From NCBI RefSeq assembly GCF_030813495.1, contig NZ_JAUSUI010000003.1, positions 310,001 to 374,000 on the forward strand: DNA of 64,000 nt, given 5' to 3'. The translations under genes were made by a program, and so were the position numbers. The notes under the pieces were generated by a model. It made no database searches. It was not told where the DNA came from and worked only from the letters and a program-made list of their open reading frames with translations. The stretch's first letter is position 1. Every line of letters starts with the position of its first letter. This document shows, in pieces, positions 26,005-43,681 of this stretch. The stretch comes from Ancylobacter polymorphus (GTDB lineage Bacteria; Pseudomonadota; Alphaproteobacteria; Rhizobiales; Xanthobacteraceae).

Positions 26005-27231
26005 ATGCGACGGTGCCTTGTGGGGATTGGTGGATCGGCCGGCTTGGCCCTGCTGGCGGGCCTTGCGCCGCAGGCGGCGTCCGCCGAGGAGATCAGTTGC
26101 GACCTCACCGTGACCGCCCTGCAGTGCGGCGGCGTGGCGAGCGGAGCCGATTCGACCGCGATCGGCGACGATGCGCAGGCGACGCAGGCCGGCACGACGG
26201 CCGTAGGCCAGGGGTCGCGCGCCTTTTCCGACAAGGCCAGCGCCTTCGGCCAGCTCGCCGTGGCCAATGGGGTGTCCTCCACCGCCATCGGCTGGAGCGC
26301 GACGGCCAATGGTGAGCAGTCGACCGCGACCGGGCAGGGAGCTGCCGCCAATGCCGGCTTCTCCTCGGCCTTCGGCAGCGGGGCGAGCGCCAACGGCACC
26401 GCGTCCTCCGCGCTCGGCCAGGACGCCCTCGCCAATGGCGCCAACGCGACCGCCGTCGGCCAGGGCGCGCGCGCCAATGCCGATGCGTCGACCGCTGTCG
26501 GGCAGGGCGCGGTCGCCAACGCCGGCAACGCGACCGCGCTGGGCACGGCGGCCACCGCCAATGGCGCCGGGGCCACCGCGCTGGGGAAGGGGGCCGTCGC
26601 CAATGCCGCCAACGCCACCGCCGTCGGTTTCGGCGCCACCGCCAATGGTGCTGGCGCCACGGCGCTGGGACAGAATGCCGTCGCCGCCGGGGCCGGTGCC
26701 GTTGCGTTGGGTCAGAACGCCAACGCCTCCGCCACGAACGCCGCCGCCCTTGGCACCGGCGCCATCGCTTCCTTTGCCGGTTCCACCGCCGTCGGTGCCG
26801 GCGCGTCCACCAGCCGGGCCAACCAGATGGCGCTGGGCACCGCCGGTTCGACCTATACGATGGCGGGGCTGACCTCGAGCGCCAGCCGGTCCGCTCAGAG
26901 CGGGGCGGTGCAGATCGTCACCACCGATGCCGTCGGCAATCTCGCCAGCGCGAGCACGGCGGAACTCTTCGACCTGCGCCCCGTCTGGGCCGAGATCGAC
27001 CGGGTGAGCGAAGGCGTTGCCATGGCGATGGCGATGGACACGCCGACCCTGCCCAATGGCAAGAACATGGCGGTGAGCGCCCAGTGGGGCACCTTCGGGG
27101 GGCAGAATGCGCTCGCGCTCTCCAGCATTGCGCGGATCGCCGACGATTCCTTCTTCGTCACCGGCGCCATCGGCGTAGGTTTCAACGAAGGCACGGTCGG
27201 CGGCAAGGCCGGCCTGCTGTTCGCGTGGTGA
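26005..27231 (+). CDS. YadA-like trimeric autotransporter adhesin
   Basis: A 408-residue outer-membrane protein. The signal peptide covers about residues 1-27 (APQAASAEE). Residues 49-266 are YadA-head repeats with a 14-residue period (forms such as ATAVGQGARANADA). They are followed by a neck/stalk with the ALGTAGSTYTMAGLTSSASR motif common in rhizobial members, a short helical segment (about 310-345) and a membrane-anchor region of about 65 residues ending in KAGLLFAW. The protein is short for the family. The ATG at 26005 was preferred to GTG 25999. A CtrA-type box lies upstream, and the next gene is close enough to be translationally coupled. Confidence 0.88.
   Translation: MRRCLVGIGGSAGLALLAGLAPQAASAEEISCDLTVTALQCGGVASGADSTAIGDDAQATQAGTTAVGQGSRAFSDKASAFGQLAVANGVSSTAIGWSATANGEQSTATGQGAAANAGFSSAFGSGASANGTASSALGQDALANGANATAVGQGARANADASTAVGQGAVANAGNATALGTAATANGAGATALGKGAVANAANATAVGFGATANGAGATALGQNAVAAGAGAVALGQNANASATNAAALGTGAIASFAGSTAVGAGASTSRANQMALGTAGSTYTMAGLTSSASRSAQSGAVQIVTTDAVGNLASASTAELFDLRPVWAEIDRVSEGVAMAMAMDTPTLPNGKNMAVSAQWGTFGGQNALALSSIARIADDSFFVTGAIGVGFNEGTVGGKAGLLFAW
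26149..26802 (+). repeat. 42-bp coding repeats of the adhesin head
   Basis: About fifteen degenerate 42-bp repeats encode the 14-residue head unit (consensus A-T-A-x-G-x-x-A-x-A-N-G-x-x). Several recurrent words, such as GCCAATGG, are nearly identical between units and could allow length change by recombination. Confidence 0.8.
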
Positions 27232-30193: not shown

Positions 30194-32385
30194 ATAGAAA
30201 ATGGGTGACGGGTATCTGGGTAGTATTAATCGCCCTAGTCGCATTTATAGTGACCTTACCGGTTAACTTGCAGGCGCAGCTGGTTACCGGCTGTATAGTG
30301 ATTCTACTAATTGTATTTTTGAGAATGTTTGCGCCAGAGGGTGTGCCCCGCATGGTTGCACTCGCTCTGGGCGTAGCAATGGTATCAAGGTACGTGTATT
30401 GGCGGACGACGTCAACACTACCTCCGGTAGAAGAACTGGCGAATTTCATTCCCGCCGTACTGCTCTACGTCGCTGAAATGTACAGCGTCGCGCTTATGGC
30501 GCTCAGCCTTTTCGTGGTGTCGGCGCCCCAGCCCGCGCGCGTTGCGCCAGCGATCGAGCCCGGCAGCGAGCCGACCGTCGATATCTTCGTCCCGAGCTAT
30601 AATGAGGATGCGGGATTGCTGGCGACGACGCTGGCTGCCGCGATGGCGATCGACTACCCCCGCGACCGGTTCACCGTGTGGCTGCTCGACGATGGCGGGA
30701 CCGATCAAAAATGCGAACAGCACGATCTGGCGGCCGCGCGCGAAGCGCAGGAGCGGCGGGCGACGCTGACCCAGCTCTGCGAGGAGCTCGGGGTGAACTA
30801 TCTCACCCGTCCGCGCAACGAATTTGCCAAGGCCGGCAATCTCAACCACGGCCTCGCCCATTCGCATGGCGAACTCGTCGTCGTCTTCGATGCGGATCAT
30901 GCGCCGGCGCGCTCGTTCCTGCGCGAGACGGTGGGCTATTTCCACCAGGACCCGCGCCTGTTCCTCGTCCAGACGCCGCATTTCTTCATCAATCCCGATC
31001 CGGTTGAGCGCAGCCTCGGCACATGGCGCCGCATGCCGTCGGAAAACGAGATGTTCTATGGCGTCATCCAGCGCGGTCTCGACCGCTGGGGCGGCGCGTT
31101 CTTCTGCGGGTCGGCGGCGGTGCTCCGGCGCGAAGCGCTGCTGGAGACGGACGGTTTCGCCCATTCCTCGATCACCGAGGATTGCGAGACGGCGCTGTCG
31201 CTCCACGCGCGCGGCTGGCATAGCGTGTATGTGGACACGCCGCTCATTGCCGGGCTGCAGCCGGAGACGTTTGCCAATTTCATCGGCCAGCGTTCCCGCT
31301 GGGCGCAGGGCATGTACCAGATCCTTCGCTTCCACTTCCCGCTGTTCCGCTCGGGTCTGACGGTTGCGCAGCGTATCTGCTACATGTCCAGCATCCTGTT
31401 CTGGTTCTTCCCGATTTCGCGCGCGATCTTCCTGATCTCGCCTTTCTGCTACCTGTTCTTCTCGCTGGAGATATTCAATGGTTCCGGCGCGGAATTCATA
31501 GCCTATACGGCCGTTTATCTTCTCACCAATCTCTTCATCCAGAGCTATCTCTTCGGAAAATACCGCTGGCCGTGGTTTTCCGAGCTCTATGAATATATTC
31601 AGACGGTTTATCTTCTTCCGGCGCTTCTTTCCGTCATGATCGATCCGAAGAAGCCAACCTTCCGGGTGACGTCGAAGGGCGAGACGATTGACGAGAACCG
31701 CATCTCGGAAATCGGGATTCCGTTCTTCATCATCTTTGTCATCCAGATCGTCGCCGTGTTCGTGACGTTCTGGCGGATCGCCACCGAGCCTTACTCCGCC
31801 GACATCACCCTCGTCGTCGGTATCTGGAACCTGCTGAATCTCATCATCTCCGGCTGCGCGCTCGGCGTGGTGTCGGAGAAGGCGGTCAAGCGGCATAGCC
31901 AGCGCATGGCGATCAGCCGGCGATGCAACCTTCTGATCGACGGTGTCGAGGTGCCGGCCGTCATCGACGACGTGTCCATGGGCGGCTTGCGCGTGCGCAC
32001 GGAGCTTCCTCCGGAGGCTCAGGCGCGGCTCGGGATGCACGCCGTGGTGCGGCTGACGCCCCCGGACGAATGCATCAGCGACACGCTTCCCGTGCTGGTG
32101 CGCAACATCGCCCATGATGATGGCGTGATCGTTCTGGGGACCCAGTTCAACGCCAAGTGCGCCGCTCACTATCAGCTCATCGCCGATCTGATCTTCGCCG
32201 ATGCCGACGAATGGAAGAAGTTCCAGGAGGGGAGGCGGCGAAACCCGGGCGTTCTCAGAGGAACCGTGATGTTCGTGCTGATCGCGGGCTACCAGACCCT
32301 GCGCGGGCTCGCTTATGTCACGCTGCTGGAAAGACTGACGCGCCGTCTCGCGCCCGGCATGTTCGCGGGAGCGACGGGACGATGA
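30187..32385 (+). CDS. bcsA: Cellulose synthase catalytic subunit BcsA, start replaced by IS end
   Basis: A 732-residue inner-membrane glycosyltransferase polymerising UDP-glucose to beta-1,4-glucan. GT2 residues are DDG (168-170), DAD (235-237), TED (330-332) and QRSRW (368-372). About eight membrane helices surround this domain. A C-terminal PilZ domain (RMAISRR, then DDVSMGG, near residues 570-600) should bind cyclic di-GMP. The original ATG was cut off by an IS. The only upstream in-frame start is TTG 30187 in the IS right repeat, replacing Met-Asn with Met-Ser-His. It overlaps the transposase stop as TTGA. The stop overlaps bcsB by 4 nt. Confidence 0.88.
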   Translation: MSHRKWVTGIWVVLIALVAFIVTLPVNLQAQLVTGCIVILLIVFLRMFAPEGVPRMVALALGVAMVSRYVYWRTTSTLPPVEELANFIPAVLLYVAEMYSVALMALSLFVVSAPQPARVAPAIEPGSEPTVDIFVPSYNEDAGLLATTLAAAMAIDYPRDRFTVWLLDDGGTDQKCEQHDLAAAREAQERRATLTQLCEELGVNYLTRPRNEFAKAGNLNHGLAHSHGELVVVFDADHAPARSFLRETVGYFHQDPRLFLVQTPHFFINPDPVERSLGTWRRMPSENEMFYGVIQRGLDRWGGAFFCGSAAVLRREALLETDGFAHSSITEDCETALSLHARGWHSVYVDTPLIAGLQPETFANFIGQRSRWAQGMYQILRFHFPLFRSGLTVAQRICYMSSILFWFFPISRAIFLISPFCYLFFSLEIFNGSGAEFIAYTAVYLLTNLFIQSYLFGKYRWPWFSELYEYIQTVYLLPALLSVMIDPKKPTFRVTSKGETIDENRISEIGIPFFIIFVIQIVAVFVTFWRIATEPYSADITLVVGIWNLLNLIISGCALGVVSEKAVKRHSQRMAISRRCNLLIDGVEVPAVIDDVSMGGLRVRTELPPEAQARLGMHAVVRLTPPDECISDTLPVLVRNIAHDDGVIVLGTQFNAKCAAHYQLIADLIFADADEWKKFQEGRRRNPGVLRGTVMFVLIAGYQTLRGLAYVTLLERLTRRLAPGMFAGATGR

Positions 32386-34982
32386 AAGCGCTTCGTATTG
32401 GCCTGACCGGCGGTGTCCTCTTCACCGCCCTCTTCCTCGCGGTTGTCGGCGCGGCGGCAAAGCCACCGCCCGACACGCCGGCGAACGCGGCTGTCCCGAG
32501 CCGCGCCCCGATTGCGCCCGCCTATGACATCCCCGCCTTCGACATGCAGGGCGGTGAGGACTCGGAGGCTGAGCCGCTGGTGCTTCCCGCCCTCATGGGG
32601 CCGACCGGCGCTCCCTTCGGCATGACGCCGCCCGCGCCCGAAGGGGCGCCCCAGAGCGTGCCCGGTGGGGGATCGCCGGGCTCGGTGGCCCCGTTCCAGA
32701 TGGTGCCGGGTCGGCCTGTGGCCGCAGTCCCGGCGAAGATCGAACCGCCGGGCCCCAGAACCCCCGATCGCTTCATCGTCCCGGTGCCCCGTCTGAGACT
32801 GGAAGGGGAGTCGGTCTCGCGCGGCTGGGTGACCTGGTTCACGCAGCAGGAGGTGGAGCGCCCGGCCACGCTGCTCATCGGCTATCTCAACGCCATCTAT
32901 GTGATGCCGGAACGCTCGCGCCTGAGGGTCACCATCAACGGCCAGCTTGTGGCGGAGATTCCGATCGCCTCGCCGCAGGGGCCGACCCAGGTGACGGCAG
33001 CCATTCCTGCCGGTGTGCTCCGTTCGGGCGGTAATCTCATCCGCATCGACATGCTGGCGGTGCACCGCACCGATTGCTCCATCGAATCCACCTACGACCT
33101 CTGGGTGGAACTCGACAATGCGCTGACCGGCGTGGCGTTCGGAGGCGGTCCCGTGCCGCCGCCCGTCATGGTCGATGATCTTCCCGCCGTTGGGGTCGAT
33201 GCGAGGGGATCAACCCATATTCGCTTCATCCACAGTGGGCCGATCGAGCCCCACCATAGCGCGCATTTCCTGGCGGCCGCCCAGGCCCTCACCCAGCGCG
33301 GGAGCTACTCGCATCCGGTTGTCTCGATCGTGGGGCCGAATGTCGGTCCGGCCGAGCCGGGGACCTTGAACGTCGTGGTGGGCATGGCGGAAGACCTGCG
33401 CGCCGTGATGGCCAGTCCGCCCGCCCTTATGGGTGGCCAGCCGCTGGTGCGCTTTTTCAACGATAACCGTGCGGGCGGCACCGTTCTCGTGCTGGGGGGA
33501 GAGACCGCGCGGAGCGTGGACGCCGCGATTGAGCGCCTCGCCGCCAGCAGCAGCCAGTCCGAACCTAGTAAGCTGTCGATTTCCAGCCGCTTCGCGCCGG
33601 ACGCGCCCTACTTCACCGGCGCGGGCAGCGTCCGTTTCTCCGAATTGGGGGTGATGACGCAGGAGTTTTCCGGCCGCCGGCTGCAACTGCGCTTTCCGAT
33701 CGGCCTTCCCGCCGATTTCTACGGTTCCGCCAATGGCCAGGCACGCATTCTGCTGGACGCGGCCTATGCGCCGAGCGTGCGGCCCGGAAGCCAGCTGTCG
33801 GTCTATGTGAATGGTTCGCTGGCGTCTTCCTACATGCTCACCGATCGGCATGGCGGGTTGATGGAGCGGAAGGTCATCAAGGTTCCGCTGACGCATTTCC
33901 GGGCCGGGCTCAACCGGGTCTGGATCGAAGTGATGCTGGATGTCGACAGCGACCGGATCTGCGGTCCCGGCGCGACGCTGGAGCGTGACAAGCGCTTTGT
34001 CGTCTTCGACTCCAGCGAGTTCGTGATGGACAGTTTCGCCAGGATCGGCACGAGCCCCAATCTGGCGGCGTTTTTCGGCGGCGGCTTCCCGTACTTCAAC
34101 GCCGCGCAGCCTATTGCGGTGGTGATGCGCCAGGATACGCCGACGGTTGCGGCCGCCGCGACGATCATGGCGCGGCTGTCCTTTGCGCAGGAACACATAG
34201 CCCCTGTCGACACGTCGCCGCCGCCGGCATCGCTCGCCAGCCGGCCGGTCCTGTTCATCGGGGAGATCAACCAGATCGCACCCGAAGTGCTGCGGCAGGT
34301 GGGTGTGGTGGATGCCAGCAAGATCCGCTGGCGCACCGATCGGGACGCCGACAAGGGCGCGCGAGGCCCGGCGCCCGTCTTCTGGGATGGAGGCGCTACA
34401 CTGCCGCCGGAGCCGATGCCGATGCTGGAGCAGGGTGTCCGCGTACGCTCCGGCTCGGGCAACGACGCCATCTTTGACCGCTGGCGGGATCAGGTCGCGG
34501 CAGGAAGCAACATAAGCGCCGAGTTGCTCCACTTTCAGAAATGGCTCACCGGCACGTTCGGTGTGTCTTTCGGCATGCCCAATGGCGGCGATGTCGAGCC
34601 GTTCAATCCCCCGCACAACACCTCGGTCCTGGTGGCGCAGGGTTTTGCCCCGAACAGTGACGCGGTCTGGACGCTCATTGCCGGGCATACGGCGGAGAGC
34701 TTCGATGCCGCCATCGATGAGTTCACCCTGCCGGAGTTCTGGGCGAAGAGTTATGGTCAGGCGTTGGCGTTCGACGCCGCGACCGGCCGGTTGGACATTC
34801 GCATGCCGAGCAGCGTGCGGTTCATCGTGACCCAGCCGCTGGGCCCGTCCAACCTCCGGCTCATCGCGGCCAATTGGCTGTCGCTCAATATTGTCACTTA
34901 CGCGCTGGTTCTCGTTTTATGCTGTATCGCCTTCGCCATCGTCGCCAGCCTGCTGCTTCGCCGCACGGGGCGGCGCGCCTGA
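32382..34982 (+). CDS. bcsB: Cellulose synthase regulatory/periplasmic subunit BcsB
   Basis: An 866-residue protein with an N-terminal signal segment (GGVLFTALFLAVVGAAA), a long Pro-rich linker (about residues 27-125), then the carbohydrate-binding and flavodoxin-like repeats of BcsB (SRGWVTWFTQQEVERPATLL, HRTDCSIESTYDLWVELDN, and ERDKRFVVFDSSEF). It ends with one C-terminal membrane helix (YALVLVLCCIAFAIVASLLL) that packs on BcsA. It guides the nascent glucan through the periplasm. The ATG at 32382 overlaps the bcsA stop as ATGA. Confidence 0.92.
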   Translation: MKALRIGLTGGVLFTALFLAVVGAAAKPPPDTPANAAVPSRAPIAPAYDIPAFDMQGGEDSEAEPLVLPALMGPTGAPFGMTPPAPEGAPQSVPGGGSPGSVAPFQMVPGRPVAAVPAKIEPPGPRTPDRFIVPVPRLRLEGESVSRGWVTWFTQQEVERPATLLIGYLNAIYVMPERSRLRVTINGQLVAEIPIASPQGPTQVTAAIPAGVLRSGGNLIRIDMLAVHRTDCSIESTYDLWVELDNALTGVAFGGGPVPPPVMVDDLPAVGVDARGSTHIRFIHSGPIEPHHSAHFLAAAQALTQRGSYSHPVVSIVGPNVGPAEPGTLNVVVGMAEDLRAVMASPPALMGGQPLVRFFNDNRAGGTVLVLGGETARSVDAAIERLAASSSQSEPSKLSISSRFAPDAPYFTGAGSVRFSELGVMTQEFSGRRLQLRFPIGLPADFYGSANGQARILLDAAYAPSVRPGSQLSVYVNGSLASSYMLTDRHGGLMERKVIKVPLTHFRAGLNRVWIEVMLDVDSDRICGPGATLERDKRFVVFDSSEFVMDSFARIGTSPNLAAFFGGGFPYFNAAQPIAVVMRQDTPTVAAAATIMARLSFAQEHIAPVDTSPPPASLASRPVLFIGEINQIAPEVLRQVGVVDASKIRWRTDRDADKGARGPAPVFWDGGATLPPEPMPMLEQGVRVRSGSGNDAIFDRWRDQVAAGSNISAELLHFQKWLTGTFGVSFGMPNGGDVEPFNPPHNTSVLVAQGFAPNSDAVWTLIAGHTAESFDAAIDEFTLPEFWAKSYGQALAFDAATGRLDIRMPSSVRFIVTQPLGPSNLRLIAANWLSLNIVTYALVLVLCCIAFAIVASLLLRRTGRRA

Positions 34983-36073
34983 TGGCGCGCTTGATGGCGC
35001 GTTTGGGCCGCGGTGCCGGCGTCGCCGCCGCCATGCTGGTGGCGGCGGCGTGTCTCGTCGCGCCGGGCGCCTTCGCAAAGGAGCCGGCCGGCATGATCTC
35101 CCGCGACGACTGGGCCGCCTATTCCGCACGCTTCGTCGATCCCAGCGGCCGGGTCATCGATGACGCGAACGGCCGTATCAGCCATTCCGAAGGGCAGGGC
35201 TATGGCATGCTGCTCGCCTATCTCGCCGGCGACAAGGCGGGCTTCGAGCGGATATGGACCTTTACCCGTACCGAACTGCTGATCCGCGACGACGGCCTCG
35301 CGGCCTGGCGCTGGGACCCGGAGGCGGATCCGCACGTCACCGATATCAATGCCGCCAGCGACGGCGACATTCTCATCGCTTATGCGCTCGCGCTCGCGGG
35401 GGAGGCGTGGAGCGTGCCGGACTATGTGAGCAGCGCGACCCGCATCGCGCGGGCGCTCGGCCAGCAGGTGGTGCGGCGTGAGGCCGGGCGGCTCGTGCTG
35501 CTGCCGGGCGTCACCGGCTTCTCGGTCGGCGAGCGGCCGGATGGGCCGGTGCTGAACCTGTCCTATTGGATCTTCGAGGCCTTTCCGGTCCTTGCCCGGC
35601 TCGCGCCTGAAGTCGACTGGGCGGGTCTTGCCGCCTCCGGCCGGGAACTGCTGTCCCTCGCCCGCCTCGGCCCGGCCAAGCTGCCGCCAGACTGGATTTC
35701 CGCGCCGGCCGGTCGCCCGCTGGCGCCGGCCGACGGTTTCGAACCGGTCTTTGGTTACAATTCGTTAAGGATAGTTCTTTACCTTCTGCGCGCCGGTATC
35801 CCCGACTCCGACGTTCAAAAAGCCATTCTCAACAATTGGATGGTGCAGAATGGGGGAATGCCGGCGATCGTGAATATCCCGACCGGCAAGGCCCTGGCCC
35901 GGCTGTCGGAGCCCGGCTACCGGATGCTGGCGGCAACGCTGGCCTGTGCGATCGACGGCACGGCGATTCCGGCAGATCTCAGGCGCCTGCAACCGAGCCA
36001 GTACTACCCGTCGACCCTTTATCTCCTAAGCCTGTCGCTGGTGAGTGAGAAATATCCGACATGTCTTCGCTGA
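34982..36073 (+). CDS. bcsZ: Cellulase BcsZ, glycoside hydrolase family 8
   Basis: A 363-residue periplasmic endo-beta-1,4-glucanase found in most bcs operons. The signal peptide ends near residue 32 (VAPGAFAKE). The catalytic acid Glu70 is in SEGQGYGMLLAY, and the conserved Asp pair follows in NAASDGDILIAYAL (Asp127, Asp129); LNLSYWIFEAFPVLA and GFEPVFGYNSLRIVLYLLRA are further family blocks. The ATG at 34982 overlaps the bcsB stop; ATG 34994 is an alternative. The gene end overlaps the TPR gene by 13 nt. Confidence 0.92.
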   Translation: MARLMARLGRGAGVAAAMLVAAACLVAPGAFAKEPAGMISRDDWAAYSARFVDPSGRVIDDANGRISHSEGQGYGMLLAYLAGDKAGFERIWTFTRTELLIRDDGLAAWRWDPEADPHVTDINAASDGDILIAYALALAGEAWSVPDYVSSATRIARALGQQVVRREAGRLVLLPGVTGFSVGERPDGPVLNLSYWIFEAFPVLARLAPEVDWAGLAASGRELLSLARLGPAKLPPDWISAPAGRPLAPADGFEPVFGYNSLRIVLYLLRAGIPDSDVQKAILNNWMVQNGGMPAIVNIPTGKALARLSEPGYRMLAATLACAIDGTAIPADLRRLQPSQYYPSTLYLLSLSLVSEKYPTCLR

Positions 36074-38142
36074 GGGTGCTTTTGCTGATCCTGGTCGGGG
36101 CGGCCGCCGTCCCGGCCATCGGCCAGCAACTCGCCTCGCCCTCTGAGAATGGCGCCGCTCCTGCCGGCGCCGCCACGACGCCGAAAGTCGACGAATCGGC
36201 GCTGCGCTTTTTCGCCGCCCAAGGCGACAAGCAGCGGCTGGACGCCGAAATTGCACGGCTGCGGGCGCTTTATCCGAACTGGCAGCCGCCCAAGGACCTG
36301 TTTTCCCCGACGCCGGACCAGGACCCCGACATTCCGCGCTTGTGGGCGCTGTTTGCCGAAGGGAAGTTCTCCGACATCAGGGCCGCCATCGCCCAGCGTC
36401 AGGCGTCGGAGCCGGGCTGGCAGCCGCCGGCCGATCTGATGGAGCGGCTCGACGAGGGCGAGGCCGCCCGCCGGCTGGTCAATGCCTCGGAGGCCAAGCA
36501 ATGGGCTTCCGTCCTGCGCATCGCCACCGACACGCCCGGCATGCTCGTCTGCGCCAATATGGACGTGCTCTGGCGCGTGGCGGAAGCCTTCGTGCGGACC
36601 GGCACTCCCCAGCGCGCCAAGGATCTGTTCATTTATATCCTGACCTCCTGCCCCAATCCGCAGGAGCGCGTCGCCACGGCGCAGAAGGCGCTGCAACTGC
36701 TCGACGGTCCCGATCTCGACGCGGTGCTCGCCCGCGCCAATCCCGATAACACGCCCGAATTCGCCGGCCTGCGCGAAGACCTCCTGCGCATGCGTGTCGG
36801 CCGCGCCGCGCAGGATACGACGCTGTCGGTATCGCCCGGCGACATCGCGGCGCTGGAGCAACTGGCCCGCAATGGATCGGTTGCCGACGATGCGCTGGTG
36901 CTCGGCTGGTACGCCTTCCGTCGCGGCGACGCGGCGCGAGCGGTCGACTGGTTCAAGCTGGCGCTGGACCGGCAGGGCGGGGCCTCGGCGGCCGAGGGCT
37001 ATGTGCTGGCGCTCGCCGCCACCGGCCGCGCCCAGGAGGCGGAACCGATCGCCTATCAGTGGCGCGATGCCGGGGCGAGCAACCGCAAGGCCTATATCGA
37101 CCTCATGGCGGGCCTGCTGGCCACGGCGCCGCCGCCGCGCCTCGAACAGTCGGTCGTCGCCCGGTTCGCCCCGGTCGTGCAGGAGGCGAAATCCGCCACC
37201 GGGGCGCAGGCGCTGGGCTGGTACGCCTATAATACCGGGCAGATCCGCACCGCAGCCTCCTGGTTCCGTACCGCCGTGCAATGGGCGCCGGCGGACGAGG
37301 TGTCCGCCTATGGGCTGGCGCTTGTCAGCCAGCGGCTGAAGGACACCGCGACCCTTGACGCCATCGCCGCCAGCTGGGCGGGGAAGTCCGAGCGCATCCT
37401 GGCGCTGGTCTCGCCCGCCGCCCGCCGCCGGCTGGCGAGCCGTGCGCCGGCTATTGCCTCACAGCCGGCCCCGATCTCGCAGCCGACGCCTATGCCCGTC
37501 AGCCGGCCGACGGCCGCGACCGCCGCGCCCCTGCCGCTCAATGGAGCCTTGCCGGACAGGCTGGCCGGATACGAAGACGGCCCGGCCTCCGGTGCTTCCG
37601 CCCCCCGCGGTGCGCCGTGTTCCAGCGCCGGCGATGCGGCGTTCCGTGCCGGCCGCGTGTCACCCGAAGAGGGCCTCGCGCGCGGCTGGTGCCTGCTTGA
37701 GCTGAACCGTCCCCTTGAAGCCATCAACGCCTTCGACATCGCCGTCCGCGACGGCGCCGGCCGGACGGCCGAAGACGCGGCCTATGGCAAGTCGCTGGCC
37801 TATATGCGGCTCGGCCTGACCAACGAGGCCCAGGTGGCCGCGATCGAGACGCCCCAGCCCCCGGCACGGGCGGTGACGCTGAGCGCCGACCTGCTCGCCC
37901 AGCGGGCGATCGCCGCCTATCGCGATGCCCGCTATGTCGAGGCGATCCTGGCGCTCGACGAGCGCAGCCGCCTCGCCCCGGAGCAGCAGGACCTGATGTC
38001 GATCCGTGCCTGGTCCTACTACCATCTCCGCGACTTCGTCTCCGCCCGGCGCATTTTCACCGCGCTCCGGGACGCCGGCTATCCCGAAGCCGGCGCCGGC
38101 ATCGATGCCATCCTGGCGGTGACCCGCCAGGTCCGCAGCTGA
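36061..38142 (+). CDS. TPR-repeat protein of the cellulose operon
   Basis: A 693-residue exported protein with a signal peptide to about residue 21 (AVPAIGQQ). The body is built of Ala-rich helical repeats of tetratricopeptide type (for example residues 275-330 and 380-420, with LGWYAFRRGDAARAVDWFKL and LGWYAYNTGQIRTAASWFRT). A Pro-rich linker (about 470-500) separates a second TPR group. No C-terminal beta-barrel like that of BcsC can be seen, so it probably supplies only the periplasmic scaffold. It overlaps bcsZ by 13 nt and is the last gene of the operon. Confidence 0.75.
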   Translation: MSSLRVLLLILVGAAAVPAIGQQLASPSENGAAPAGAATTPKVDESALRFFAAQGDKQRLDAEIARLRALYPNWQPPKDLFSPTPDQDPDIPRLWALFAEGKFSDIRAAIAQRQASEPGWQPPADLMERLDEGEAARRLVNASEAKQWASVLRIATDTPGMLVCANMDVLWRVAEAFVRTGTPQRAKDLFIYILTSCPNPQERVATAQKALQLLDGPDLDAVLARANPDNTPEFAGLREDLLRMRVGRAAQDTTLSVSPGDIAALEQLARNGSVADDALVLGWYAFRRGDAARAVDWFKLALDRQGGASAAEGYVLALAATGRAQEAEPIAYQWRDAGASNRKAYIDLMAGLLATAPPPRLEQSVVARFAPVVQEAKSATGAQALGWYAYNTGQIRTAASWFRTAVQWAPADEVSAYGLALVSQRLKDTATLDAIAASWAGKSERILALVSPAARRRLASRAPAIASQPAPISQPTPMPVSRPTAATAAPLPLNGALPDRLAGYEDGPASGASAPRGAPCSSAGDAAFRAGRVSPEEGLARGWCLLELNRPLEAINAFDIAVRDGAGRTAEDAAYGKSLAYMRLGLTNEAQVAAIETPQPPARAVTLSADLLAQRAIAAYRDARYVEAILALDERSRLAPEQQDLMSIRAWSYYHLRDFVSARRIFTALRDAGYPEAGAGIDAILAVTRQVRS

Positions 38143-39892: not shown

Positions 39893-41215
39893 TCATCCAT
39901 AGGGATAGGTAGGCCCGTGAGGTGAAACGCCGATGTCGAACGATCTGAGCGAGGCCCCGCTTTCGGATTCGATGGCGGCGGCAAGACGCCGCAAGGTGTC
40001 GCGCGCCTCGGGTGCCGCCCGGGCTTCCAGCACGCTCGTGCTGGCGAGAAGCTGGCGCACCACATCGGCATCGTTCATCCCATAGCGTGCGATGGCCGCA
40101 AGCGCCGGGCAGGCGAATTCCTCGAACGTGTTGACCGGGACGAACACCCTCGGCCGCCCCCCTTCGTCCGCCCGCACCGGAGACGGCATGTCGCGCCCGG
40201 CCAGCAGCCATAAGGCCTGGGCCAGTCTGTCGATGCAGTACAGAGCCGTGGTCGGATCATTGATGCCGGGGGAGAGGGCGCGCTGGGCGATCTCGACAAA
40301 TCGGTGAAGAGAGAACTGCAGGTCCTGCATGGGCGTGCGATCCGCGCCGAGGACGAAAGCCTGGCGCAGGCGATCCTTCACCTCCTCCGACACACGAGCC
40401 CGGGGCGCGGCGCGGAGCAGGGGAACCCGCTCGGTGACGAACCGGCCCGGAGGCGAGTCCACGCCGATGACCAGATCATGTTCGGTGGCGATTCGCATCA
40501 AGGCGGCCTCGTCGAGGCGCTGCACATAGCCGCTGCCTTCGACGAAGACCGCGCGTGAATCCCCCTCCAGCGTGTGGAGCAGGCCGGCAGAGATGCGGCC
40601 GTCGCGCCCCTTTGGCTCCTGGCCCATCTGGGCCGGAAAGAGACGCTCGATGGTGCTTCGTGTCTCCTGAGAGAGATCGGCAAGCACCGTTTCGATCCGG
40701 ATCGAGTTGGCGACGTGATGAATGAAGTAGATCAGTATGGCGAGGCTCAGCGCGGCCAGCACGACGCCGAAGGTGACGGACAGATGCGGAACGAAGCTTG
40801 CGTCCTCGGTGCCGCGCACGGTGCGCAGCACCAGCAGGCAATAGAGGAATGTGCTCGTGAAGGTTCCCAGTACCAGCTGGTTGCCGCGATCGCTCATGAA
40901 GCTGCGCAGCAGTCGCGGGCCGAATTGCTGCGAGGCCAGCTGAAGCGTCAGCATGGTCATTGAAAAGGTGAGGCCGGCCACGGTGATCATCGAGCCCGCG
41001 ACGGCGGACAACACCGCGCGTGCACCCTCCGGCCCGAAGCCGTAGAGCCAGCCCAGTCGCTCGATCGACTCCTGGCCCAGCCACGTGTCGAGCCAGACGA
41101 GGGCAAAGGAAAGTGCGGTGGCACCGGCGGCCATCGCCGAGGGCAGGAACCAGAAACTTGACCGCAGGCGGTCCCAAACGCCAAGCAGCCATGTCGGCAA
41201 TGACAAGTGCTCCAT
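39893..41215 (-). CDS. DUF2254 family membrane protein
   Basis: A 440-residue inner-membrane protein with four membrane helices in the first 170 residues (SSFWFLPSAMAAGATALSFA, AVAGSMITVAGLTFSMTML, GTFTSTFLYCLLVL, VVLAALSLAILIYFIHHV). The conserved QLASQQFGPRLLRSFMSDR and the cytoplasmic RALSPGINDPTTALYCIDRL segments identify the DUF2254 family, whose function is unknown. GGAGG lies 5 nt before the ATG at 41215. It is divergent from the ATP-grasp gene with about 180 bp between. Confidence 0.88.
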   Translation of the reverse strand: MEHLSLPTWLLGVWDRLRSSFWFLPSAMAAGATALSFALVWLDTWLGQESIERLGWLYGFGPEGARAVLSAVAGSMITVAGLTFSMTMLTLQLASQQFGPRLLRSFMSDRGNQLVLGTFTSTFLYCLLVLRTVRGTEDASFVPHLSVTFGVVLAALSLAILIYFIHHVANSIRIETVLADLSQETRSTIERLFPAQMGQEPKGRDGRISAGLLHTLEGDSRAVFVEGSGYVQRLDEAALMRIATEHDLVIGVDSPPGRFVTERVPLLRAAPRARVSEEVKDRLRQAFVLGADRTPMQDLQFSLHRFVEIAQRALSPGINDPTTALYCIDRLAQALWLLAGRDMPSPVRADEGGRPRVFVPVNTFEEFACPALAAIARYGMNDADVVRQLLASTSVLEARAAPEARDTLRRLAAAIESESGASLRSFDIGVSPHGPTYPYG

Positions 41216-41395
41216 CCCCACCTCCGGCGATTAAGCGGCGGAGCGGCCGCTTGGTTCCATCGGCTGGCGTCGGCGGGGCCTCGCGTCGCCTGTGGCGGAG
41301 AAACGCCCGAAAAAATGTGGGGCCCCAGCCCCGGACGGGAGTTTTCGCCGGTCTCGACGCCCGCTAGAACGGCGTTGCTGCGAATGGAACATGCG

Positions 41396-42442
41396 ATGCC
41401 CGATACGCCGACGATCCTCCTTCTCGGACATGAGACCACCCTTCACCAATCCTATTCGCCGATCCGCCTTCGCGCCGTCGTTGGCGAGGCGGCCTATCGC
41501 GGCGTCCGTGTGCTGCTTGCCCGCAGCGCCGACTGCGACATGCAAGCGGAGCGGATAAGGGCGCATGAGTATGTCGACGGGGCTTGGAGGCCTGTCGAAA
41601 TCGACGTGCCGCGGCTCGTGGTGGCGGCCGCACCGCCGACCCGACCCGCGCATCGCGTCGTTGATGCCTGGCTGCGGGCGCGCACCAAGGTTCTCGCCTT
41701 CGATGGCTATGACAAGCACCAGATGGCCGCGATGCTGGCCGCCTATCCGCATCTGAAGCCGCATATCATTCCTGAAGAGGTGCTCGTCGCCGAACGGGTC
41801 GAGGCGCAGCTCGCCGAATGGCTGGCCGGCGGCCCCATCGTGGTCAAGCGCGCCGATGGCGCTCTGGGGACCGGCATCTTCTTTCTCATTCCGCAGGACG
41901 ACGAGGTTGCCGTTCACAAGGACGAGCACTCCTGGCGCGGCACGCGCGCGGAGGCGATTGCGCGCGTCATTGGCGCGATACGCGTGCGCATGGGCTACCG
42001 CACCTATCTGGTGCAGCGCTTCATCGACACCCACGACCTGGCCGGCCAGCCGGCGACGGTGCGCGCCGACATGGTCCGTCGGCCGGACGATGGCTGGGAC
42101 TTCTTCCGCCTGACGGGCCGCGTCTCGCTTGGTTCCAAGCTGATTTCGAACCGGGCCAAGGGCAGCGCGCTGATCGACGCGGAATCCTATTTCATCGCGC
42201 GCGGGGCGGCCGATCCCGAGGGCAAGGTCCGCGAAGCCCAGGCACTGTCACGGGAGATCGCCAGCACGCTGTGCCAGCAGCCGGGCCTTGGCGCCTGTTA
42301 TGAGTTCGGCATCGACCTTGCCGTCGACCAGGATCTGCATTTCTGGTTCCTCGAAGCCAACAAGCGCCCCCTCGCCAATGGCGCCGAGATCGAACGCATG
42401 ATGCCCGCGATGACCTATTGGCTGTCGCAGCTCAACGACTGA
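41396..42442 (+). CDS. ATP-grasp family protein (YheC/YheD-like)
   Basis: A 348-residue protein with an ATP-grasp fold: IVVKRADGALGTGIFFL supplies the Lys and glycine-rich loop (about residue 145), VQRFIDT follows, and the C-terminal FWFLEANKRPLA carries the metal-binding Glu-x-Asn. Such enzymes join a carboxylate to an amine or thiol through an acyl phosphate; the substrate here is unknown. ATG 41384 is also possible; 41396 was preferred because GGAA lies just upstream. It converges with the hydrolase gene and their 3' ends overlap by 28 bp. Confidence 0.72.
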   Translation: MPDTPTILLLGHETTLHQSYSPIRLRAVVGEAAYRGVRVLLARSADCDMQAERIRAHEYVDGAWRPVEIDVPRLVVAAAPPTRPAHRVVDAWLRARTKVLAFDGYDKHQMAAMLAAYPHLKPHIIPEEVLVAERVEAQLAEWLAGGPIVVKRADGALGTGIFFLIPQDDEVAVHKDEHSWRGTRAEAIARVIGAIRVRMGYRTYLVQRFIDTHDLAGQPATVRADMVRRPDDGWDFFRLTGRVSLGSKLISNRAKGSALIDAESYFIARGAADPEGKVREAQALSREIASTLCQQPGLGACYEFGIDLAVDQDLHFWFLEANKRPLANGAEIERMMPAMTYWLSQLND

Positions 42443-43437
42443 TCGCCGCCCCTCCAGCCGCCGGGGCCGGAGGCGCGGACGAAGCTGTCCAGCAGCGGTC
42501 CGAACGTATTATTGGCGACGGTGACCTGGATCGTCCCATGGTCGCTGACGCCCGGCAGGGGATGCTCGACGACCATGGGCAGATCCGCGAGATAGCGCGC
42601 GGAGGCCACGTCCGCCTTATTCTCGGTGCCGTAGACAATCTCGATATGCGGCGCCCTCGGGGCGGCGGCAATCTGCTCGCGCAGCTGCGTGTCGGCATCG
42701 GTGAGGGATCGCCCGATCCGGTTGCCGATGCGCTCGCGCACCTTGCCCCGTGTCACCGGCAGGAGGATGGGGCTGAAGGTCATGACGCCATCGGCGCCGA
42801 GCTTCACGCCGTAATGGAGCGCGCCAAAGCCGCCGGCGGACTGGCCGAGGCAGAGCACACGGCGCGACTTCAGTTCCGCGCAGAGGCCGCGCAGGCGCTC
42901 GACCGTCGCGTCGACGCTGCCGCCCAGCCCCGACACGCCGCCGAAATAGAAGTTGTTCGACCAGTCGAAGAGATAGATCAGGTTGGCATTCAGCCGACCG
43001 AGCAGGCTGTGCATGAAATAGATGGACAGGCCCAGCAACTGCGCCTTCCCGGCAAAGGCGATCAGCGTCGTGTCCGAATCGGCCGGAACCACCCAATAGC
43101 CGCGGTCTTTCGCCCCCGCATCGGCGATTCCCGCCGCAGGAAGAAACAGGTGATCCTCGCTGCGCGCCCGGCGCAGCGCGCGCAGCTCCCCCATGATCTC
43201 CGTCACGCTGCCCCGCAGATCGCGCACATCCATAAGGGTGGCGAGCATGGCGACCGTCTCGCCGATCATGCCGCAGCGGACGAACTGCCGGCACACCTCA
43301 AGGCGCAGCTTCGGGTCGGAGTTCCCGTGCGCAATGGACTTGGCATAGGCGAGATAGGACGCGTCGAGGCGCGAGGCCGCGTGAATCCGCGCCGACGGCC
43401 GCAGCGCCTCGGGATCAATCGGCGTGCGCGGCGGCAT
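42415..43437 (-). CDS. Alpha/beta-hydrolase-fold protein
   Basis: A 340-residue protein. An N-terminal helical region of about 95 residues precedes an alpha/beta hydrolase core with TLIAFAGKAQLLGLS and the nucleophile elbow GQSAGG (Ser near residue 200). An Asp or Glu in EIVYGTENKADVAS and a His in GVSDHGTIQV could complete the triad. It could be a thioesterase, esterase or acyltransferase. The ATG at 43437 lies inside the end of the acyl-carrier-protein gene (23-nt overlap), which suggests it acts on the carrier-bound acyl group. Confidence 0.7.
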   Translation of the reverse strand: MPPRTPIDPEALRPSARIHAASRLDASYLAYAKSIAHGNSDPKLRLEVCRQFVRCGMIGETVAMLATLMDVRDLRGSVTEIMGELRALRRARSEDHLFLPAAGIADAGAKDRGYWVVPADSDTTLIAFAGKAQLLGLSIYFMHSLLGRLNANLIYLFDWSNNFYFGGVSGLGGSVDATVERLRGLCAELKSRRVLCLGQSAGGFGALHYGVKLGADGVMTFSPILLPVTRGKVRERIGNRIGRSLTDADTQLREQIAAAPRAPHIEIVYGTENKADVASARYLADLPMVVEHPLPGVSDHGTIQVTVANNTFGPLLDSFVRASGPGGWRGGDQSLSCDSQ

Positions 43438-43681
43438 TGGCGATGATCAGCTCGGCAAGCCCCCGCACCGTCGCGTTCGCGGCGAGGAAGAATTCCGCTC
43501 CGATCTGGCGATCGAACGTCTTCTCGAACTGGAGCGCCATTTCGACGGCGTCCACGGAATCGAGGTCGAAATGCGAAAGCGGCATGCCCGGGTCGATCGT
43601 ATCGCTGTCCTCACCGGAAATGACAGCGAGATAAACGACGATCCAGCGGAGAACGCGCTCGCTGTCCAATGATGCCTGCAT
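43415..43681 (-). CDS. Acyl carrier protein
   Basis: An 88-residue carrier protein. The phosphopantetheine site is Asp-Ser-Val-Asp in HFDLDSVDAVEMA, preceded by IDPGMPLSHF and followed by the recognition helix and FDRQIGAEFFLAANATVRGL. This is a variant of the housekeeping DSL(D/E) motif, so it is probably a specialised carrier. The ATG at 43681 was preferred to the TTG at 43714. It overlaps the hydrolase start by 23 nt. No ketosynthase or adenylation gene is nearby. Confidence 0.82.
   Translation of the reverse strand: MQASLDSERVLRWIVVYLAVISGEDSDTIDPGMPLSHFDLDSVDAVEMALQFEKTFDRQIGAEFFLAANATVRGLAELIIANAAAHAD

Follow-up and report, generated by a model that had tools for sequence, protein, structure and literature searches.

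The window, by which we mean the whole 64,000-nucleotide stretch of Ancylobacter polymorphus DNA that was analysed, carries three overlapping genes for an ATP-grasp ligase, an alpha/beta-hydrolase-fold enzyme and a stand-alone acyl carrier protein (ACP), together with a linked fourth gene, for a DUF2254 membrane protein, that an earlier note on this DNA had left out of its three-gene locus (Table 1). The three open reading frames lie where that note had placed them, with an overlap of 23 nt between the ACP and hydrolase genes and of 28 nt between the hydrolase and ATP-grasp genes, and both overlap lengths are identical in the related genome G015 (L024) and in A. vacuolatus (L105). An in-frame ATG at 41384, 12 nt upstream of 41396, is another possible start for the ATP-grasp gene. 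All three genes are under purifying selection: when they were compared with four relatives, NG86 dN/dS lay between 0.15 and 0.37 in 11 of 12 comparisons, which is why we do not regard them as chance open reading frames, and the twelfth value (0.60, for the ACP against G002) comes from very few changes.

Table 1. Genes of the block, with positions in the window
Feature	Position	Strand	Evidence
DUF2254 membrane protein, fourth gene of the gain/loss block	39893-41221	-	PF10011, 1e-124
ATP-grasp ligase, YheC/YheD family, 348 aa	41396-42442	+	PF14398, 6e-27
Alpha/beta-hydrolase-fold enzyme, 340 aa, candidate acyltransferase or thioesterase	42415-43437	-	Triad, AlphaFold core, PDB matches
Stand-alone acyl carrier protein, 88 aa, attachment site DLDSVDAVEM	43415-43681	-	PF00550, 5.8e-10

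The observation that no synthase lies nearby holds for the ten proteins between 34.9 and 47.3 kb that were scanned with Pfam. A cellulose synthase cluster (window 30478-38142; a catalytic subunit with PilZ, BcsB, a family-8 glycosidase and a TPR protein) lies ∼3–11 kb from the trio, and upstream of that cluster is a gene for a trimeric autotransporter that resembles YadA, contains four stretches of head repeats and is anchored at its C-terminus (window 26044-27231). We considered cellulose modification as a role for the trio and rejected it: in the window, G002 and G015 the bcs cluster adjoins the trio, yet this adjacency is not conserved, since TRAP-transporter-like genes replace bcs in A. 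vacuolatus, 501b and A. rudongensis.

The ATP-grasp protein belongs to the YheC/D family, scoring 94.9 bits against PF14398 (Pfam; cut-off 26.8), and K107, K151, D307, E320 and N322, which we take to be candidate ATP/Mg residues, are invariant in all six aligned sequences, Azospirillum included. Its sequence makes it a candidate carboxylate ligase; its predicted structure (pLDDT 60.8, 3 sequences) gave no structural match with E under 0.08. The ACP likewise falls within its Pfam family (PF00550, 39.7 bits, cut-off 20.8) and has the Asp-Ser attachment site, with Asp41-Ser42 invariant in nine of nine aligned sequences and Ser42 in 11 of 11 in a second alignment. The DSVD form of this site had been described as unlike the housekeeping one, and the same genome bears this out: its 78-residue housekeeping-type ACP has DSLD, as does a second ACP, while a third has SSLD. 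The ACP profile matches carriers such as 2n98, which we take to be LipD, and the Pks13 N-ACP, both of which are loaded by fatty-acyl-AMP ligases. Elsewhere in this genome (G000, contig C11, ∼100–125 kb), frames as long as 2986 aa contain several carrier domains and are likely to represent an NRPS/PKS cluster.

The hydrolase matches no Pfam family above cut-off, the best being Hydrolase_4 at 11.2 bits (cut-off 27), and it scores below the NCBIfam cut-offs for Asp2 (TIGR03712, 12.0 bits against 210.75) and XcbB/CpsF (NF033892, 15.7 bits against 125). Ser200, Asp276 and His300 are invariant in all 11 aligned homologues. In the AlphaFold model, mean pLDDT is 70.8 and much of the core is near 90; all 1000 of the 1000 Foldseek-ranked chains aligned to it at Z of at least 8, which places the protein in the alpha/beta-hydrolase superfamily. 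The top aligned chain was chain B of the Gap123 complex, presumably Gap2, an Asp2 homologue (Z 17.2, rmsd 3.8, 204 residues), in effect tied with the next row (Z 16.8). An esterase followed within half a unit, many more esterases came within ∼1–2 Z units of the top score, and the matches further included antigen 85C and a capsule O-acetyltransferase. The modelled fold would suit a transferase and an esterase alike, and the enzyme may either transfer or release its acyl group. A phage search with the hydrolase gave no match.

To place the locus within its genus, we used a sample of 41 genomes of relatives, 25 of them Ancylobacter. Orthologues of the ATP-grasp (identity at least 66%, the fifth split in two pieces) and of the hydrolase (at least 71%) occur in the same five of these 25 genomes (G000, G002, G015, G019 and G023), and DUF2254 occurs in exactly the same five at E up to 1e-40. 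A sixth ATP-grasp match, in G022, is partial and lies inside a long open reading frame (E 2.4e-4), and seven further hydrolase matches in the relatives sample are remote (27–36% identity). Four of the five genomes, and also A. vacuolatus, have undamaged ACP, hydrolase and ATP-grasp genes in an unchanged order; in the fifth genome, A. rudongensis (G023), the trio decays jointly, with the ACP and the N-terminus of the hydrolase lost and an internal deletion in the ATP-grasp. Scattering among related genomes, which the earlier note had named as the outcome that would speak against its reading, was not seen: the genes are together in all five genomes that carry them, the decayed one included, and they are also linked outside these five, in A. 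vacuolatus and in Azospirillum. The ATP-grasp, hydrolase and ACP genes form a real unit. Genome G012 provides a near-exact empty site: the two sides that border the block in A. vacuolatus adjoin there to within 13 nt, and the 3.96-kb segment that it lacks comprises the ACP, hydrolase, ATP-grasp and DUF2254 genes; a block of ∼4 kb was therefore gained or lost as one. Neither insertion-element ends nor a clear target duplication were seen at the block ends.

For all three genes, the closest relatives that we found are linked on p1 of Azospirillum sp. TSH100 and on AZO_p1 of Azospirillum lipoferum 4B, all within 4 kb, at identities of 29% for the ATP-grasp, 43–47% for the ACP and 36–38% for the hydrolase. 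The carrier motif DLDSVDAVEMAL is common to the window ACP and the Azospirillum ACPs, and the genes at these loci are annotated as YheC/YheD family protein, acyl carrier protein or hypothetical protein, or are unannotated. In Azospirillum the ACP gene sits between those for the hydrolase and the ATP-grasp, and the ATP-grasp gene is divergent, whereas it is convergent in Ancylobacter. The Azospirillum loci also differ in having an extra, cyanophycin-synthetase-like ATP-grasp (profile score below cut-off) just upstream of the ACP and in its operon. We rejected this second ATP-grasp as a part of the Ancylobacter cassette, where it has no linked counterpart and matches, in six of ten genomes, are remote and inside larger open reading frames; the roles in the two genera may therefore differ. 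The TSH100 locus has type I secretion genes for neighbours, together with genes for a glycosyltransferase and for a protein weakly similar to sulfotransferases, and relatives of the latter two are found at the unannotated 4B locus. A type I secretion partner was rejected for Ancylobacter, in that the four trio genomes searched gave only general ABC-transporter matches (at most 40%).

Beyond these genera, a search with the ATP-grasp through 372 class genomes at E 1e-8 found only its own genome, and a profile search matched four of 378 phylum genomes, the other three in frames of 937–972 aa, near which no trio was recognised when the neighbouring open reading frames were inspected by eye. Several YheC/D proteins in other settings were noted in passing. 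A second one, 38–39% identical to that of the window, lies 4 kb past it (L020:8278-9324; G000:C3:378278-379324) between an MFS transporter and a tRNA-like stretch, and occurs only in G000 and G002 among the 41 genomes. On pAt of Agrobacterium tumefaciens Tul002 (L116:9665-24583), a protein of 1660 aa combines one YheC/D ATP-grasp region with two that are cyanophycin-synthetase-like; it is flanked on one side by type I secretion genes that include a BapA-like protein and on the other by a different, overlapping alpha/beta hydrolase. In G856 (L123:291-6549), a YheC/D ATP-grasp protein of ∼930 aa follows a large Ig/cadherin-repeat protein. Taken with Azospirillum, the Agrobacterium and G856 cases suggest a possible association of YheC/D ligases with giant exported adhesins.

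We surveyed 42 loci with hydrolase homologues: 10 from the relatives (E up to 1e-5, window included), 11 from the class, 18 new ones from the order and those on 3 of 8 plasmid records. Using a carrier profile that was itself built partly from the surveyed loci, a carrier protein was found at 23 of the 42, no farther than 6.2 kb from the hydrolase homologue (relatives 9/10, class 5/11, order 7/18, plasmids 2/3), where ∼0.03 carriers per locus would be expected from the density of carrier domains in the genome of the window. The profile had no match at the other 19, although one of these (L101) has an ACP-like 90-aa open reading frame 2.9 kb away that the profile missed. Two loci with hydrolase E above 1e-5, L031 and L032, gave no carrier match, and the carrier of L088 does not match the motif pattern used and resembles the NRPS type. 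The hydrolase family pairs widely with carrier proteins.

These carrier loci differ in the activating enzyme that accompanies them. With profiles for AMP ligases and for ATP-grasps of the GSP_synth, YheC/D and cyanophycin-like types, a set that would miss other ligases, 11 of the 23 carrier loci had an AMP ligase, nine an ATP-grasp, none both and three neither. The nine ATP-grasps comprise six of YheC/D type and three of GSP_synth type, the latter confirmed by PF03738 for L026 and L060 and assigned to L027 by similarity to these two. The non-overlap of AMP ligase and ATP-grasp has an uncorrected P of 0.0003, with related loci counted separately and the ATP-grasp loci representing about three lineages, and none of the nine ATP-grasp loci has an AMP ligase within ∼10 kb. 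The 20-kb stretch around the window trio contains no AMP-forming ligase, unlike a fatty-acyl-AMP-ligase/ACP locus. In a hydrolase tree of 36 rows (leaving out the near-copies and duplicates L023/L106, L032, L092-L094, L109 and L111, the truncated L025/L107, and L063, L065, L067, L068 and L114), the rows with a YheC/D partner fall into a single group (100/99), apart from another that is made up of AMP-ligase loci (100/99); the four Ancylobacter and two Azospirillum rows group together (100/99). Partner labels change 10 times on this tree against 19.8 in shuffles, with none of 200 shuffles as low. Hydrolase lineages track the type of activating enzyme that adjoins them.

The GSP_synth-type ATP-grasp forms a compact, operon-like set with a ∼200-aa open reading frame, an ACP and the hydrolase at L026:7210-10264, L027:6778-9791 and L060:9375-12577, and L058 has the same set without the ATP-grasp. 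At L099:5136-9636, a glutamine-synthetase-like ligase, a short P450-like protein and a carrier near the hydrolase homologue are possibly a further amide-ligase combination.

We favour a reading in which the trio is a dedicated carrier-protein acylation unit, with the ATP-grasp charging the ACP and the hydrolase-fold enzyme transferring or releasing the acyl group, and we give this reading about an even chance of being correct. The acid that the ATP-grasp would activate as an acyl phosphate and join to the phosphopantetheine thiol of the ACP is probably an amino acid or some other small carboxylic acid; the serine alpha/beta-hydrolase-fold enzyme would then take the acyl group from the ACP and either release it or pass it to an acceptor that is probably exported or located at the cell surface. 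The mechanism as a whole is one that we infer with moderate strength. The secretion and glycosyltransferase neighbours in Azospirillum and the Asp2-like fold hint at a surface or exported acceptor; nothing adjacent to the Ancylobacter trio supports one. The earlier note had proposed an undescribed tailoring system that borrows acyl chains from fatty-acid synthesis. Its unit, a dedicated carrier with a ligase and a transferase- or thioesterase-like enzyme, remains the best reading and tailoring is plausible, while the borrowing is unsupported: 20 of the 23 carrier-linked loci have an AMP ligase or ATP-grasp of their own, a pattern that favours a dedicated step in which a free acid is loaded. 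In the open-licence literature, we found no description of an ATP-grasp/ACP/hydrolase set and no role assigned to YheC/D ATP-grasps or to this hydrolase family.

A parallel in principle is butirosin, where the ATP-grasp BtrJ loads an amino acid on the stand-alone ACP BtrI and the acyltransferase BtrH moves it. A linked ATP-grasp and stand-alone ACP are present in the window, in relatives that carry the trio, in A. vacuolatus and in Azospirillum, and we infer butirosin-type charging from the mutual exclusion of AMP ligases and ATP-grasps as partners, because sister loci have an AMP ligase where the trio has its ATP-grasp. BtrI and BtrJ are named among the butirosin side-chain genes in passages of PMC11405602. 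The BtrH family is called papain-like in PMC2922099, whereas the Ancylobacter enzyme is an alpha/beta hydrolase. A note added in proof to the same paper describes amino acid:[carrier protein] ligases that charge a stand-alone carrier with an amino acid for an unknown product; these charging enzymes are seryl-tRNA synthetase homologues, in contrast to the ATP-grasp of the trio. Loci with a fatty-acyl-AMP-ligase-like enzyme and an ACP (e.g. L096 and L087) share with the trio a homologous hydrolase and a stand-alone carrier, and the L096 ligase has fatty-acid--AMP-ligase models as its best match, below their cut-offs. The Asp2/Gap2 O-acetyltransferase of the accessory Sec system, the top aligned structure, is an alpha/beta-hydrolase-fold acyltransferase, but the trio's enzyme lies far below the TIGR03712 cut-off and esterases score nearly equal to Gap2. 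Asp2 acetylates an exported adhesin (PMC5578698). It is not known to use an ACP.

Among other explanations, the ACP might be charged elsewhere, by fatty-acid synthesis or an unlinked ligase, with the hydrolase-fold enzyme transferring the acyl group and the ATP-grasp separately amidating the same product; the outcome would be an acyl-amide, for instance a lipopeptide or decorated polymer. The likeness of the ACP profile to carriers that are loaded by fatty-acyl-AMP ligases fits this, as do the two ATP-grasps of Azospirillum and the fact that ATP-grasp enzymes usually make amides via acyl phosphates (PMC8762209). We nonetheless consider it unlikely, given that all nine ATP-grasp loci are free of a nearby AMP ligase and that the ATP-grasp stands where other branches have that ligase. 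Less probable again is a thioesterase role for the hydrolase: an acid loaded onto the ACP by the ATP-grasp would be altered or kept on the carrier until the hydrolase set free the acid or a small signal. The intact Ser-Asp-His triad and the many esterases close behind the best structural match would agree with this, and a P450 at several related loci could act on the bound acid; however, the enzyme matches no Pfam thioesterase family at E up to 1, and loading followed by plain release would be futile in the Ancylobacter cassette, since it contains no modifying enzyme.

It is also conceivable, though we think it very improbable, that the four genes are passengers that moved jointly and do separate jobs. 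DUF2254 may be such a gene: it is widespread without the trio (87 plasmid records), is intact in A. rudongensis beside the decayed trio and was not found at the Azospirillum loci. The trio itself, in contrast, is linked again in Azospirillum without DUF2254 and in another arrangement, and ACP and hydrolase are linked in many lineages.

Carrying the acylation-unit reading to the whole family is more tentative, and we hold it as a possibility that is more doubtful than the reading of the trio itself: one hydrolase-fold transferase family with a stand-alone carrier would form a so far undescribed family of carrier-protein transfer systems, its charging enzyme swapped between AMP ligases and at least two separate ATP-grasp families (YheC/D and the glutathionylspermidine-synthase type), and in Azospirillum and Ancylobacter an ATP-grasp-activated acid would be placed on a polymer that is exported or at the cell surface. 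Having three genes and a carrier of its own, the set is a small, testable system. To our knowledge, butirosin is the one known case of an ATP-grasp charging a carrier protein; if the exchange of AMP ligase for ATP-grasp is true, charging of carriers by ATP-grasps would be more widespread than butirosin.
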